In this document: piece after piece, positions 11,584-16,404 of the stretch
Numbering within the stretch: the first letter of the stretch is position 1
Layout: each line of letters opens with the position of its first letter
Origin: Bacteroidales bacterium
GTDB lineage: Bacteria > Bacteroidota > Bacteroidia > Bacteroidales > P3
Direction of reading: 5' to 3'
Length of the DNA stretch: 45,882 nucleotides
Assembly (NCBI GenBank): GCA_017530105.1
Contig: JAFXMW010000072.1
Location: 1 to 45,882, forward strand
The notes under the pieces: model-generated
Seen by the model: only the letters and a program-made list of their open reading frames with translations
Databases searched by the model: none
What the model was told of the DNA's origin: nothing
Position numbers and translations under genes: made by a program

Positions 11584-11707
11584 CATTTTTACAAAAAAAA
11601 CGACCACACCCTTGAATTCATGTCTATTCACGACAATTCGCCTTCCTCTTCAGAAAAATCCTTATCCCACAAAGTCCATGAAAAAAAACTTTTCCACCCT
11701 ATATTTA

Positions 11708-11724
11708 TGTGTAAAAAATACACA
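11708..11724. promoter_or_regulatory. Palindromic site 1, candidate operator
   Basis: TGTGTA-AAAAA-TACACA is a perfect 6-bp inverted repeat with a 5-base spacer. Two more sites of the same layout occur downstream. It lies in the otherwise featureless AT-rich stretch 11562-11824, where I see no credible gene. Confidence 0.45.
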
Positions 11725-11824
11725 ATTCAGACATAAAAAAAGGACAAAACAACAATCGAAAATGATATGTGAACTAAAAAAACACATTTTTTTCATATTC
11801 ATATACAGACAATTACATATTATT

Positions 11825-11841
11825 TGCGTAAATTATACACA
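11825..11841. promoter_or_regulatory. Palindromic site 2, candidate operator
   Basis: TGCGTA-AATTA-TACACA has the same 6-5-6 layout as site 1 with one arm mismatch. It ends 6 bases before the -33 element of the Nudix gene promoter. Confidence 0.5.
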
Positions 11842-11847
11842 TTTTTT

Positions 11848-11878
11848 CTTGCTATATTATTTTTTTGCTGTATCTTTG
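11848..11878 (+). promoter_or_regulatory. Promoter of the Nudix/VWA/ARG operon
   Basis: CTTG at 11848-11851, a 19-base spacer, and TATCTTTG at 11871-11878 fit the Bacteroidota promoter consensus. The transcript would start near 11883-11885, inside palindromic site 3, about 38 bases before the ATG at 11922. Confidence 0.7.
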
Positions 11879-11893
11879 CGTCAAAATTACACA
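11877..11893. promoter_or_regulatory. Palindromic site 3, candidate operator over the start site
   Basis: TGCGTC-AAAAT-TACACA has the same layout as sites 1 and 2. It overlaps the last two bases of the -7 box and the expected transcription start. Its centre is 52 bases from that of site 2, close to five helical turns, so dimers on both sites would sit on the same face of the DNA. A regulator bound here would block transcription. Confidence 0.5.
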
Positions 11894-11921
11894 AATACAA
11901 ATACCCCTAAAACAACATAAA

Positions 11922-12782
11922 ATGTCGACGGAACAATACACCTATCAATACCCCCATCCGGCAGTCGCCACCGACTGCGTGGTTTTCGGCTTCGATGGAC
12001 GAGAACTGAAAGTCCTGCTCATTGAACGGGGGATAGACCCCTTCAAAGGCATGTGGGCTTTCCCCGGTGGATTCATGCGTATGGACGAGACAGCAGAAGA
12101 ATGTATACTACGTGAACTGAAAGAGGAGACCGGTCTCCAACTCACCACCATCAAACAACTTGGAACCTTCACCGGCATCAACCGCGACCCTCGTGAGAGA
12201 GTCATCTCCATCGCCTTCTACTCCCTCTCACCCGACACCGAGGTTCACGGGGGCGACGATGCTACCAATGCCCGTTGGTGGCCTATCGACGACATCCCAC
12301 AGCTGGCCTTCGACCACGACTATATCCTGCGACAAGCCATGAAACGCATCCGACAGGACATCCATTTCGAGCCCGTAGGCTTCGGCCTCCTCCGCGAAGA
12401 ATTCACCATGGCCGAACTGCAACGTCTCTATGAGAGCATCCTCGGCATTCATTTCGACCGCCGCAACTTCTACAAAAAAATGCTCCAAACCGGTATCCTG
12501 CATGAGGTGAGCGAAACCGACTCGCCCTCCTACTATGGCAAACGCCGGGAAATGGTAAGCATGGACATCGACAACCTCTTTGCCGACCATGCAGCAACCG
12601 ACAACGGTATCCCCCGCCTGTTCATGGCTCAGTCCCTGCCTGACTGCGACATGGACGACGAAACCCCATCCCTCCATTCTTCCCCACGCCAGCAACCTGG
12701 ACGCAAAGGCAAACTCTTCCGTTTCGACAAGGAAGGCTACGACCGAATGAAAGAAGAGGGCAATTTCCGCCTTGAATTCTAA
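11922..12782 (+). CDS. NrtR-like Nudix hydrolase/transcription regulator
   Basis: The protein has 286 residues. The N-terminal Nudix domain has an intact Nudix box, G-x5-E-x7-REUxEExGU, at about 50-72 (GGFMRMDETAEE then RELKEETGL), so it could still hydrolyse an ADP-ribose-type substrate. The C-terminal part (about 150-200) matches the winged helix of NrtR regulators: FGLLREEFTMAELQRLYESI and DRRNFYKKMLQTGIL. The family's usual final strand, GKLFRFDKEGYDRM, comes only after about 60 extra residues (about 202-262), so the wing carries an insertion. NrtR proteins repress NAD-related genes and sense ADP-ribose, while the related AraR of Bacteroides senses arabinose. ATG at 11922 follows the promoter. 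It is first of four co-directional genes with gaps of 18-33 bases, and three palindromes upstream suggest autoregulation. Confidence 0.85.
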   Translation: MSTEQYTYQYPHPAVATDCVVFGFDGRELKVLLIERGIDPFKGMWAFPGGFMRMDETAEECILRELKEETGLQLTTIKQLGTFTGINRDPRERVISIAFYSLSPDTEVHGGDDATNARWWPIDDIPQLAFDHDYILRQAMKRIRQDIHFEPVGFGLLREEFTMAELQRLYESILGIHFDRRNFYKKMLQTGILHEVSETDSPSYYGKRREMVSMDIDNLFADHAATDNGIPRLFMAQSLPDCDMDDETPSLHSSPRQQPGRKGKLFRFDKEGYDRMKEEGNFRLEF

Positions 12783-12814
12783 TCAAAAAATATTAACCAC
12801 AAAACTATACAACA

Positions 12815-13903
12815 ATGGAAACCACAGCAAAGAACAAAATCTTCAACCTCATCATCCTCGACAAAAGCGGCTCCATGTCCAGCATCGAGGAGGCTGCCAT
12901 CGCCGGCTTCAACGAAACCCTTGGCGGAATACAATCCGCCCAGAAACAATTCGCCGACACCCAGCAGCACTTTGTCTCGCTCCTGCCCTTCTGCGCCTGC
13001 TCCATGGAATACGTCTACGACTGCTCCCCCGCCGAAAGCGTCAAGAAACTCACCCACCGCGAATACCAACCCTGCTGCTGTACCCCTCTCTACGATGCCA
13101 TGGGCCACGGCATCAACGACATGCTGCGCAAAACCCAGGACGACAAAGACGCCTCCGTCATCGTCACCGTCATCACCGACGGTATGGAAAACGCCTCGCA
13201 CGAATACTCCGGAGCCGCCATCAAAGCCCTCGTCGACAAAATGCGCGACCAATACGGATGGAATTTCGCCTACATCGGCACCAACCAGGACGTGGAGTCG
13301 GTGGCGGCAAAGCTCTCCATCACCAACACCATGTATTTCGAGGACACCTCCGAAGGCATGAGGGAAGCTTGGGAAAAAGAACGCAAAGCCCGCCACCGCA
13401 TGTACAGCAGGATTGAAAACATCTCCTACGCCTGCTGCGAATCGGCCGCTCCCGTAGAGAAAGCCCAATCCATACGCAACATGTTGAAAGAAAACGTCAA
13501 CTACCGCAATATTTCGGAGTTCAAACAACGCACCACACCCGACAGAATCGACCACCTTTCGCCCAATCAAATCTTTGTCTTTGGCAGCAACAGCAAGGGC
13601 ATCCACGACGGCGGCGCCGCATACCTTGCCCTCAACAAATTCGGTGCCGTCCCCGGACAAGGCTCAGGACTGCAAGGCAACAGCTACGCCATCCCCACGA
13701 TGGACGGAATGAGAGCCCTCTCCATACACGTGAGGGATTTCATAAGATTCGCCAATCAACACCCCGAGCTCACTTTCCTCGTCACCCGCATAGGCTGCGG
13801 CACCGCAGGCCTCACCCCTGCACAGGTGGCACCCCTCTTCGCCGGTGCCGTGGACATGGAAAACATCTGGCTCCCCGCCGACTTCTGGCAAGAGATCATC
13901 TGA
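12815..13903 (+). CDS. VWA domain fused to a macro-like A1S_2505-type domain
   Basis: The protein has 362 residues and no signal peptide, so it is cytoplasmic. Residues 9-200 form a von Willebrand A domain with a complete MIDAS: DKSGS (Asp16, Ser18, Ser20), CCCTPLYDA (Thr90) and ITDGME (Asp122). It should bind a divalent metal and a protein partner. From about 250 a second domain begins with IFVFGSNSKGIHDGGAA, continues with GQGSGLQGNSYAIPT, and ends with FLVTRIGCGTAGLTPAQVAPLF. I recognise this as the A1S_2505-type family, whose N-terminal strand and Gly-rich loops resemble ADP-ribose-binding macro domains. That likeness is inferred from motif pattern only. The region is Cys-rich (CCCT, ACC, CAC). 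The gene lies 32 bases after the Nudix gene and before an ADP-ribosylglycohydrolase, which fits ADP-ribose handling. Confidence 0.75.
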   Translation: METTAKNKIFNLIILDKSGSMSSIEEAAIAGFNETLGGIQSAQKQFADTQQHFVSLLPFCACSMEYVYDCSPAESVKKLTHREYQPCCCTPLYDAMGHGINDMLRKTQDDKDASVIVTVITDGMENASHEYSGAAIKALVDKMRDQYGWNFAYIGTNQDVESVAAKLSITNTMYFEDTSEGMREAWEKERKARHRMYSRIENISYACCESAAPVEKAQSIRNMLKENVNYRNISEFKQRTTPDRIDHLSPNQIFVFGSNSKGIHDGGAAYLALNKFGAVPGQGSGLQGNSYAIPTMDGMRALSIHVRDFIRFANQHPELTFLVTRIGCGTAGLTPAQVAPLFAGAVDMENIWLPADFWQEII

Positions 13904-13936
13904 ACCGCCCATAAACAATAACACCCAACAGTAATT

Positions 13937-14266
13937 ATGAACCCCGACAGAGACAAACCACGCAACTGGATGCTACGAAAAAGCCACCTCGACGACATCA
14001 GCGAAGAACGGCTTACCGAAATTATAGCGATGCTGCAACGCGTTGCCCACAACACCGGTGCCACCCTCAACCAGACAATCAGCGTCTACGATGCAGCCAG
14101 CCGCAACCGACTCACCGAAGTGCTGCTGGACAGCGGCGACGCTTTCGACAGAGTTGTATCTGACTTCCATAGCTGGAAAAAGTCCGACGGCTACCTCTAC
14201 GTGAAGCTTAGCGGTGACGACTTGGCAGACGAAGTACGTGTACAGATAGAAGAAAAAGACAACTAA
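13937..14266 (+). CDS. Small protein of unknown function in the Nudix/ARG operon
   Basis: The protein has 109 residues, is soluble and acidic, and has no signal peptide or cysteines. I do not recognise the family. It looks mostly helical at first (DDISEERLTEIIAMLQRVAHN), then has a segment ISVYDAASRNRLTEVLL and a strand-rich end (SDGYLYVKLSGDDLADEVRVQI). Spacing of 33 bases from the VWA gene and 18 from the ARG gene, codon use like its neighbours and an uninterrupted frame argue that it is real and co-expressed. It may be an adaptor for the VWA or ARG protein. Confidence 0.65.
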   Translation: MNPDRDKPRNWMLRKSHLDDISEERLTEIIAMLQRVAHNTGATLNQTISVYDAASRNRLTEVLLDSGDAFDRVVSDFHSWKKSDGYLYVKLSGDDLADEVRVQIEEKDN

Positions 14267-14284
14267 CAAATAAACAACAAAAAA

Positions 14285-15049
14285 ATGATAGGAGCAATAA
14301 TAGGTGACATAGTAGGGTCACGTTTCGAGTTCAACAACCACCGCTCGACAGAGTTCGAGTTCTTCCACCGCGACTGCAACTTCACCGACGACACGGTGAT
14401 GACCATCGCCGTAGCCGACGCCATCATGAACAACCGCCCTTTCGGTGAGGTGATGCACGAATATGGCAGCAAATATCCCAACCGAGGTTATGGCGCCCGT
14501 TTCTTCAACTGGCTGCTTTCCACGACCCCGAAGCCTTACAACTCCTACGGCAACGGGTCGGCCATGCGTGTCGCTCCCTGTGCACTCCTTGCCCGGGGCA
14601 ACCGCGAACAGGCTTTGACCTGGGCTGCGGCCTCAGCAGTATGCACCCACAACCACCCCGAAGGGGTGAAAGGAGCCTTGGCAGTGACCGACTGCATACT
14701 CCTGGCGGCAGAACACCGTCCGATGAAGGAAATAAGGCACCTTGCCCAACAACTCTACGGCTACAACATGGACTTCTCCATCGACCAAATACGTCCCACT
14801 TTCCACTTCAACGAAACCTGCCAGCACACCGTGCCGCAGGCCATTGAAGCATTCCTCGAAAGTCACGACTTCGAAAGCGCCATCCGCCACGCCGTCTCAC
14901 TCGGGGGCGACAGCGACACCATAGCCTGCATCACCGGCGGCATGGCCGAAGCCTACTACGGGGTGCCCGATGCCTACAAAACAGCCGCCATGGCCCTGCT
15001 GCCCCCTCAAATGCAGGGAATCGTAACCCGTATGTATGGCAAAGAATAG
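14285..15049 (+). CDS. ADP-ribosylglycohydrolase (DraG family)
   Basis: The protein has 254 residues and is cytoplasmic. Members of this family remove ADP-ribose from modified proteins, nucleic acids or small molecules using two metal ions. The ligands are visible: Thr34-Asp35-Asp36 in NFTDDTVM and Asp209, Asp211, Thr212 in LGGDSDTIACITGGMAEA. The start MIGAIIGDIVGSRFEF is the classic N-terminus, and YGNGSAMRVAP (about 88-98) is the substrate loop. It lies 18 bases after the small unknown gene and is last in the operon. No ADP-ribosyltransferase is visible nearby, so the substrate must come from elsewhere or be a free metabolite. Confidence 0.9.
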   Translation: MIGAIIGDIVGSRFEFNNHRSTEFEFFHRDCNFTDDTVMTIAVADAIMNNRPFGEVMHEYGSKYPNRGYGARFFNWLLSTTPKPYNSYGNGSAMRVAPCALLARGNREQALTWAAASAVCTHNHPEGVKGALAVTDCILLAAEHRPMKEIRHLAQQLYGYNMDFSIDQIRPTFHFNETCQHTVPQAIEAFLESHDFESAIRHAVSLGGDSDTIACITGGMAEAYYGVPDAYKTAAMALLPPQMQGIVTRMYGKE

Positions 15050-15798: not shown

Positions 15799-16404
15799 AT
15801 GACTACAAAGGAGAAGATTCTACAACTGCTCGACGCCACCGACCGTGAGGGGATTGACGAGGTGATGGACTGGCTGAAGGGCTCCGGTTATTTCACGGCT
15901 CCCGCTTCAACCAATTTCCATGGCAATTATGAGGGCGGTCTTGCCGACCACTCGCTCAATGTCTACACCGCCGCCATGCGTCTCCGCGCCACGGCTCTGA
16001 GCCTCAACCCGTCGCTCGAAGAGCTGCTGACCGAGGACAGTGTGGCCATTGCCACCTTGTTGCACGACGTGTGCAAAGCCGACATATACAAGGAGGTTAC
16101 CAAGAAACGCCAGAACAGTTTCGGGAGGTGGGAAGAGTATAACGGCTACACCGTGGACTACAGCAATTTCCCCCTCGGCCACGGCGAGAAGAGTGTCATC
16201 ATCCTTCTGCGTCTGGGTCTTGACATGACCGATGCCGAGATTGCCGCCATACGGTGGCACATGACCGCTTGGGACTTGCCCTTCCAAAGCATGGAGGCCA
16301 AGGGCAACCTCAACACCGCCAGAGACAAGTATCCGCTCTGCTCCCTGCTCCAGTTGGCAGACGGTTTCGCCTCATCCTTGATGGAAGACACGGTGGTGCT
16401 CTGA
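15799..16404 (+). CDS. HD domain-containing hydrolase
   Basis: The protein has 201 residues and is cytoplasmic. HD-type metal ligands are visible in order: His in HSLNVYTAA (about 51), His-Asp in ATLLHDVCKADIY (about 90), and later His in LGHGEKSVIILL and AIRWHMTAWD. Family members are phosphohydrolases acting on nucleotides or related compounds. The exact substrate cannot be read from the sequence. It follows the flavodoxin gene by 6 bases and is followed by a strong terminator at 16425-16464. Confidence 0.8.
   Translation: MTTKEKILQLLDATDREGIDEVMDWLKGSGYFTAPASTNFHGNYEGGLADHSLNVYTAAMRLRATALSLNPSLEELLTEDSVAIATLLHDVCKADIYKEVTKKRQNSFGRWEEYNGYTVDYSNFPLGHGEKSVIILLRLGLDMTDAEIAAIRWHMTAWDLPFQSMEAKGNLNTARDKYPLCSLLQLADGFASSLMEDTVVL

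Follow-up and report, generated by a model that had tools for sequence, protein, structure and literature searches.

ADP-ribose tags are a chemical mark in cell stress and in the warfare between bacteria and phages, and the macrodomain is an ADP-ribose-handling module. The closest described systems are host systems centred on an ADP-ribosylglycohydrolase (ARG), predicted in 2022 (PMC9503650, section 3.8), in which the ARG is associated with a Nudix or WYL regulator, with vWA or TY chaperones and optionally with macro genes. Their induction by ADP-ribose was proposed, they contain no transferase, and they were predicted rather than assayed in that work. The Nudix or WYL sensor is fused to a helix–turn–helix (HTH) domain in >42% of these systems, and a coupled phosphatase, which is optional, is present in a little over 55% of ARG neighbourhoods (PMC9503650). 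Here, a four-gene operon of this kind is described in a Bacteroidales bacterium (assembly GCA_017530105.1, contig JAFXMW010000072.1, the 45,882 nucleotides of which are called ‘the window’). It encodes an NrtR-type regulator, a protein combining a VWA domain with a predicted macrodomain (VWA::macro), a small protein and an ARG, and is probably an ADP-ribose-responsive, autoregulated operon for ADP-ribose removal.

An initial annotation of this DNA had read the locus as a sensor–responder unit. The observation is confirmed and its central idea is correct: self-regulation, the macro-like domain, the conservation of the gene set, ADP-ribose as the likely ligand and the Nudix box have all stood. 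What has not stood is its status as an unheard-of unit, such systems having already been printed as a prediction (PMC9503650). New here are the version found in Bacteroidales, the assignment to the macrodomains of a family so far named after phages, the operator, and sister loci in which an ECF-sigma-like region is fused to the macrodomain.

Operon, operator and co-conservation

The four genes all lie on the + strand, separated by gaps of 32, 33 and 18 bp, which agrees with the co-directional arrangement (gaps of 18–33 bases) noted initially. The features of the locus are listed below in window coordinates.

11707..11725, distal operator-like palindrome ATGTGTAAAAAATACACAA, one mismatch to TTGYGTN7ACRCAA
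11824..11842, middle operator-like palindrome TTGCGTAAATTATACACAT, one mismatch
11871..11878, + strand, TATCTTTG, fitting TAnnTTTG, which we take to be the consensus of the Bacteroidetes -7 element; overlaps the proximal operator
11876..11894, proximal operator TTGCGTCAAAATTACACAA, exact match
11922..12782, + strand, gene 1, NrtR-type Nudix-winged-helix regulator, 286 amino acids (Pfam and alignments)
12815..13903, + strand, gene 2, VWA::macrodomain fusion protein, 362 amino acids (NCBIfam and PHROG profiles)
12830..13393, + strand, VWA domain of gene 2, approximately residues 6–193 (MIDAS-type residues, PHROG profile, predicted fold)
13520..13900, + strand, A1S_2505 domain of gene 2, predicted ALC1/DarG-type macrodomain fold
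13937..14266, + strand, gene 3, protein of 109 amino acids, optional member
14285..15049, + strand, gene 4, ARG of the DraG/ARH family, 254 amino acids
15076..15152, strand not assigned, A+T-rich cluster in which TTGTTTTACACTT recurs as direct and inverted repeats, immediately 3′ of the ARG gene

Control of the operon is indicated by a 19-bp palindrome, TTGYGTN7ACRCAA, located upstream of the regulator gene. It is exact in 21 of 22 operon promoters (window and relatives) and present with at most one mismatch in all of them, 15 having at least two sites at this threshold. These 22 promoters belong to the listed operons that are led by the regulator gene and in which an N-terminal anchor was found; some are close relatives. 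Upon 200 dinucleotide shuffles of the promoter set, a mean of 0.005 promoters contained an exact site and 0.16 a site with ≤1 mismatch, and the reversed promoter sequences, also used as a control, contained no palindrome site. A second site (≤2 mismatches) is found in 20 promoters and is spaced 52–53 bp from the proximal one in 15 of these 20, i.e. by about five helical turns. Six loci were left out of the set (L040, L268, L277, L278, L283 and L284; L and G numbers designate loci and genomes); exact sites are present in L278, L283 and L284, and no site with ≤1 mismatch in L277. TAnnTTTG-like strings occur, uncounted, at the same place in many related promoters. The start coordinate of the initial annotation, 11708, falls within the distal palindrome, and the ATG of gene 1 (11922) sits within a longer TTG-started frame beginning at 11865.

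In the 2.75-Mb assembly to which the window belongs, the proximal operator is the sole exact match. Sites with ≤1 mismatch occur at 19 places, three of them here, versus 25 places for a control pattern, and 22 control loci (251,628 bases) contain no exact site and three with ≤1 mismatch. Based on the single exact site, these near-match counts and the control loci, the operon seems to be the principal target of its regulator, or even the only one. Over the whole window, sites with ≤2 mismatches are no commoner than in shuffled sequences (8 versus a mean of 7.7), so that the evidence resides in the place and recurrence of the palindrome and not in its raw count. On these sequence grounds, the self-regulation proposed for the operon is well supported.

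The expected co-conservation of the genes was also found in other genomes. Gene 2 is matched at all in 66 of 295 genomes of the order and 97 of 149 of the family, many of these matches covering a single domain. Among 79 genomes of the same genus, 67 have some match, largely to the macrodomain part alone, and 11, own included, have the full-length VWA::macro gene (rows counted by hand). Apart from the window, near-whole-query matches in one piece define 18 full-length places in 17 other genomes (two in G404). The regulator lies within 1.5 kb of the VWA::macro gene in 16 of these places, the ARG gene in 12 and both in 11, as compared with two (regulator) and none (ARG) of 20 loci having only a VWA relative. 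The regulator is beyond 1.5 kb in L040. Not included in the count are G316, where two pieces of one frame are matched (L279), and four public-contig loci (L033–L036) that display the order regulator, VWA::macro, (gene 3), ARG; the L034 record is from Candidatus Colimorpha pelethequi.

Other arrangements were encountered. At L265 (6130-6906 and 6923-8513), a relative operon has a second VWA gene and two tandem ARG genes. A window-type regulator and VWA::macro gene stand at one end of a contig catalogued as viral (L077/L157, IMGVR_UViG_3300031867_010011) and may be bacterial flank or element cargo. The ADP-ribosylglycohydrolase of a hemin locus, as described in the available text of an iron-stress paper, was set aside since it is not this operon.

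The neighbourhood was scanned with Pfam over nine open reading frames between 8.3 and 16.7 kb of the window, namely the four of the operon and those of five neighbouring genes. No ADP-ribosyltransferase, NAD-synthesis family or coupled sirtuin was matched among them, in keeping with the earlier statement that the operon has neither a transferase nor an NAD biosynthesis gene. Within the operon, neither a phosphatase nor a sugar-catabolic enzyme family was matched by Pfam or NCBIfam. The single PADLOC match is that of the PDC-S07 model, to the Nudix part of gene 1 (E 1e-12); genes 2–4 are matched by no model. PDC presumably stands for phage-defence candidate. The repeats downstream of the ARG gene are a possible transcript end of the operon, and a terminator scan listed no site there. 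The five neighbours are ordinary genes (U32 peptidase, secretion-tail protein, flavodoxin, HD domain and PspC). The HD-domain gene (15799-16404) is two genes 3′ of the ARG gene, separated from it by a 227-bp gap and the flavodoxin gene; HD phosphatases are named as partners of ARG systems in PMC9503650.

In the operon genomes, the search for transferases was aimed at DarT only. The own assembly, 82.7% complete, has no DarT match, and the 18 operon genomes, own included, contain ARG in 16 cases and DarT in three. These three (G438, G418 and G404) are among six genomes having a VWA::macro gene with no nearby ARG (see below); the numbers are small and the coincidence may be due to chance.

The four proteins and the macrodomain family

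Gene 1 is matched by the Pfam families NUDIX (PF00293, E 6e-24) and NrtR_WHD (PF21906, E 4e-17), and also by AraR_C (E 1e-7). Its nearest solved relatives by profile are BtAraR (5bs6), followed by the ‘MutT/nudix family protein’ 2fml and SoNrtR (3gz5). The Nudix box, described initially as intact, is complete (residues 50–72), and R36 and R91 align with Arg41 and Arg98 of SoNrtR, the ADP-ribose contacts (PDB chain numbering is shifted by three, as deduced from Arg34/Arg41). According to PMC4666351, these two arginines touch ADP-ribose, BtAraR has Gly89 at the second place, and NAD-type NrtR proteins have an impaired Nudix motif, which AraR has not conserved. With D tolerated for one E, the box is found in 14 of 17 distinct regulators of the family-level set (16 of 19 match rows, two proteins appearing twice). 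Given the full Nudix box and both aligned arginines, ADP-ribose is likely to be the ligand and likely to be hydrolyzed by the Nudix domain; this residue comparison favours ADP-ribose, the signal proposed initially, over a pentose.

Gene 4 belongs to the Pfam family ADP_ribosyl_GH (PF03747, E 6e-39), matched only this once in the own assembly, and its closest solved relatives are ARH3 proteins. Its TDD and GGDxDT motifs, which we take to be the metal ligands of this family, are kept in 11 aligned sequences, consistent with the claim that the ARG has all its metal ligands.

Gene 3 found no credible family in profile searches of Pfam, NCBIfam, PHROG and PADLOC, the weak HrpD6 and PHROG matches being disbelieved, and no credible relative in the PDB (actins at E 0.018 and worse). 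No relative was found in the 295 genomes of the order apart from the own genome, nor in viral contigs; the 149 family genomes were searched within the fetched loci. Among the loci examined, its relatives are confined to L033, L271, L275 and the window, all inside such operons; L033 and the window apart, gene 3 is thus present in two of the 18 full-length operons that were fetched. The view that the small protein is part of the unit holds for the window operon, in which it is encoded; elsewhere it is an optional extra.

Gene 2 is matched by no Pfam family at E-values of up to 0.1. Its N-terminus matches phrog_7371 (E 5e-37; function not given in PHROG), shares a MIDAS-type pattern (DxSxS, T, D) kept in 27 aligned sequences and adopts a VWA fold in the predicted structure. 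Its C-terminus corresponds to NCBIfam NF049995, A1S_2505 ‘phage non-structural protein’ (E 4e-39), a family matched in 418 of 50,697 phage records. In the model of the whole two-domain protein, the VWA part dominated the PDB fold matches, and the A1S_2505 domain (127 amino acids) was therefore modelled alone, yielding a predicted macrodomain fold. With hhalign, the A1S_2505 profile matched a profile of 19 DarG-type sequences at probability 94 and E 1.4e-7, and a single DarG-type sequence at a probability of 8% (E 0.001). The 19 sequences were recognised by our own reading, with no library name; most are proteins of ∼350 amino acids whose macrodomain is N-terminal and which contain FPTK and GGL motifs. 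A PDB sequence search with the A1S_2505 profile gave nothing up to E 10, and a fold search of a viral library with the two-domain model gave phage proteins, mostly with no informative names. Judged by predicted fold and profile match, the domain appears to be an ALC1/DarG-type macrodomain, which bears out the macro-like C-terminal domain first suspected in this protein.

Several candidates were discarded along the way. A bacterial PARG from a single-sequence PDB search (E 0.75 only) was not counted as evidence, MacroD-type macrodomains were rejected as the nearest class, hhalign having found nothing, and a Pfam Macro match in L298 (E 0.004), read as lying before the A1S_2505 domain, was left unused. 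The phage antitoxin mimic AdfB was dropped as support, since it resembles the C-terminus of DarG and not its macrodomain in the portion of its description available. An early alignment of 94 rows contained misaligned VWA-only rows and was replaced by a later one. In addition, the own genome has a second, standalone A1S_2505 gene (contig C13, L073:6037-6405), the neighbours of which look chromosomal by their first residues.

The A1S_2505 domain is found in various fusions. Its partner is an ARG in L061, L066, L271 and L291–L294, a Nudix domain with most of the winged helix missing in L068, a DSP/PTP-type phosphatase in L112, and a microbial-type PARG catalytic domain in L070:4990-6378 and L298:4974-6266, giving two macrodomain-type modules per protein. 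In proteins of the viral contigs L093, L114, L118 and L142, it is joined to DUF7666 and to long arrays of short-unit repeats, which are of the Pentapeptide_2 type in L114 and Collagen-like in L093. Beside these fusions, an 845-amino-acid frame open to the stretch end (L047:13272-15809) combines an ARG, a DSP/PTP-type phosphatase and a second ARG domain; it adjoins a divergent A1S_2505 gene with a one-mismatch operator-like site at L047:13139.

A last partner is an N-terminal sigma-70/ECF-like region, matched by TIGR02937 in five proteins with E-values from 8e-8 to 2e-5, below the curated cut-off. This sigma::macro protein was found in ten places (viral-contig loci L078–L082 and L085, genome loci L285–L288), and in each of them the opposite strand carries a VWA gene close by. 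An ARG and a Nudix gene are near it in L078, L080, L085 and L160, a wider stretch of the L081 contig; no ARG was seen in L079, L082 and the genome loci L285–L288, as fetched. No NrtR-type operator with ≤1 mismatch was detected in seven of these loci (L078, L080, L085 and L285–L288). The contigs may be prophages or mobile elements, and the ECF-sigma-like::macro fusion is a possible ADP-ribose-sensing sigma factor.

Proposed mechanism and rival explanations

From the gene set, its co-conservation, the operator, the predicted macrodomain fold and the conserved ligand and Nudix residues, all computed here, we infer a ligand, repression, enzyme activities, a substrate, an adaptor role and a biological trigger as follows. 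Dimers of the Nudix-winged-helix regulator would bind two or three palindromes, one of them over its own promoter, and hold the operon off. The trigger would be ADP-ribosylated molecules generated by the transferase of a phage or rival, or the cell's own NAD use; free ADP-ribose would enter the Nudix pocket and the repressor would release the DNA. The ARG would then remove ADP-ribose from proteins (or nucleic acids), and the Nudix domain of the regulator, which probably hydrolyzes ADP-ribose since its Nudix box is intact, would eliminate the inducer, with the response terminating itself. The VWA::macro protein would most likely read ADP-ribosylated molecules via its macrodomain and hold or deliver them via the VWA metal site.

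Several findings weigh against this reading. No ARG is found within 1.5 kb of six of the 18 full-length VWA::macro genes, and one place (L268) has neither regulator nor ARG at this distance. Among the six genomes concerned, G201, G438, G418 and G404 carry an ARG elsewhere, adjoining the second VWA::macro copy in G404, and G385 and G439 carry none; two loci with a trans-encoded ARG, L294 and L394, were inspected and lack an operator with ≤1 mismatch. The overall score places the regulator nearer to BtAraR (E 2e-55) than to SoNrtR (E 5e-36), and the best PDB match obtained for the A1S_2505 domain by Foldseek alone has E 0.016, none falling below E 0.001. Moreover, the catalytic lysine of TARG1 (Lys84) and DarG (Lys80) aligns to Met in the window, and Lys occupies this position in none of 69 distinct fused or bacterial-locus domains (60 Met, 6 Thr, the rest Ile, Val or gap). 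This set comprises domains that have a VWA, ARG, Nudix or sigma partner in the same protein or that come from bacterial genome loci, the genome copies being those that best match the window; at least seven of the domains (L077 and six sigma fusions) are on viral contigs, so that ‘not Lys’ is a trait of fused or genome-derived copies. In 68 other distinct viral-contig domains, with 80 of 351 viral relatives taken in, Lys is found 36 times and Met 15 times.

With Met in the window and no Lys in the 69 domains, hydrolysis by the macrodomain of gene 2 is doubtful, and a role as an ADP-ribose reader is likely. The latter is not graded higher because SCO6735, an ALC1-like hydrolase, is active despite a missing catalytic lysine (PMC9411070 and PMC7050489, accessible parts) and requires a His for activity (PMC9411070, same parts). 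By analogy, the invariant His at residue 29 of the A1S_2505 domain could be catalytic. At the level of the family, it can tentatively be suggested that A1S_2505 is a widespread, unrecognised class of ALC1-type macrodomains on both the phage and bacterial sides, in which phage copies, often with the lysine, would erase ADP-ribosylation and bacterial or fused copies, having lost this lysine, would read it. The latter would have been wired by bacteria and their mobile elements into three kinds of response, namely NrtR-controlled VWA::macro/ARG operons, fusions to ARG, PARG or Nudix domains, and ECF-sigma-like::macro proteins beside VWA genes.

The purpose of the operon may be sought in defence or in housekeeping. 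A chiefly defensive purpose, layered on the same mechanism, would be to undo ADP-ribosylation by phage transferases, and a counter-phage purpose has been proposed for ARG-centred systems (PMC9503650). It is suggested by the lack of a transferase among the nine scanned frames and of a DarT match in the own assembly, by the patchy occurrence of the full-length gene (11 of 79 same-genus genomes), by the frequency of the macrodomain family in phages (418 of the records searched) and by the PDC-S07 match; however, this match does not extend beyond the Nudix domain and may simply be due to the Nudix family being a common one, genes 2–4 match no PADLOC defence model, and the scanned flanks are ordinary chromosomal genes. 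DarT, the only transferase searched for, is present in 3 of the 18 operon genomes, which makes an internal source of ADP-ribosylation possible in some. Taken together, defence can be entertained as a possibility, on the less probable side. In housekeeping, the task of the operon would be to clear the ADP-ribose and the adducts that the cell itself produces through NAD turnover, under stress or during DNA repair. That the own assembly has one ARG (gene 4), that macrodomain copies outside the operon are common in the genus (matches in 67 of 79 genomes, largely macrodomain only) and that the second own copy (L073) lies among genes chromosomal-looking by their first residues would fit such a role, but the full-length gene is missing from most same-genus genomes, which is unusual for housekeeping, and the single exact operator suggests a dedicated conditional response, so that this purpose too is somewhat doubtful.

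Other explanations concern the nature of the system itself. An AraR/XylR-like pentose sensor governing ribose or arabinose salvage would account for BtAraR as best solved relative (E 2e-55) and for the AraR_C match (E 1e-7). It is very improbable in view of the full Nudix box, which AraR proteins lack according to PMC4666351, of the ADP-ribose-contacting position, occupied by Arg here and by Gly in BtAraR, and of an operon that has ARG and macro domains and no matched sugar-catabolic family. Hardly any credence is given to a toxin–antitoxin module in which the 109-amino-acid or VWA protein would be toxic and restrained by the other members: the genes are small and tightly coupled, and one related macrodomain protein, DarG, acts as an antitoxin (PMC7050489), but no transferase domain was recognised in the operon by Pfam or NCBIfam and the small gene is limited to two of the 18 fetched full-length operons, L033 and the window.

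Comparison with described systems

As a probable ADP-ribose removal operon, the window locus shares with the ARG-centred systems of PMC9503650 the ARG core, the NrtR-like Nudix-HTH regulator, a vWA protein and an accessory macro domain, together with the lack of a transferase in the scanned stretch. It differs by having no recognised phosphatase or ARPP gene, by the combination of VWA and macro domains in a single protein and by the use of a different macrodomain family; the phosphatase link exists in relatives of its macrodomain, as a fusion in L112 and as the adjacent ARG-phosphatase-ARG frame of L047. The lineages named in PMC9503650 include actinobacteria, planctomycetes and proteobacteria, and the term ‘Bacteroidetes’ is absent from the main text, as far as available. 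In DarTG toxin–antitoxin systems, DarT lies beside a macrodomain gene, whereas the own assembly has no DarT match.

The individual proteins also compare with known ones. The regulator shares with SoNrtR and other NrtR regulators the Nudix and winged-helix domains, the conserved ADP-ribose-contact arginines and a palindromic operator. Unlike NAD-type NrtR, in which the Nudix box is impaired (PMC4666351, accessible text), its box is intact and its target is an operon for ADP-ribose removal instead of NAD synthesis: no NAD gene was matched in the operon and the assembly has a single exact operator. BtAraR (5bs6) is the closest solved sequence, with the same two-domain layout, but it has neither the Nudix residues nor the second arginine, both present in the window regulator. 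With the ARH3 and DraG hydrolases, gene 4 shares the ADP_ribosyl_GH family and its characteristic motifs; it has no transferase partner among the nine scanned frames. As to the ALC1-like macrodomains (TARG1, DarG and SCO6735), the window domain differs by its length of 127 amino acids, and the genome or fused A1S_2505 copies lack the catalytic lysine of TARG1 and DarG, as does SCO6735 in the sources as available.

These comparisons turn a general prediction into a testable case, with a named operator, a regulator having ADP-ribose-contact residues and a Nudix box, and one ARG in the assembly. They also provide a likely structural and functional class for NF049995, so far labelled only ‘phage non-structural protein’. 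Lastly, the NrtR and WYL regulators of PMC9503650 may be joined by a third kind of ADP-ribose sensor, the ECF-sigma-like::macro fusion.

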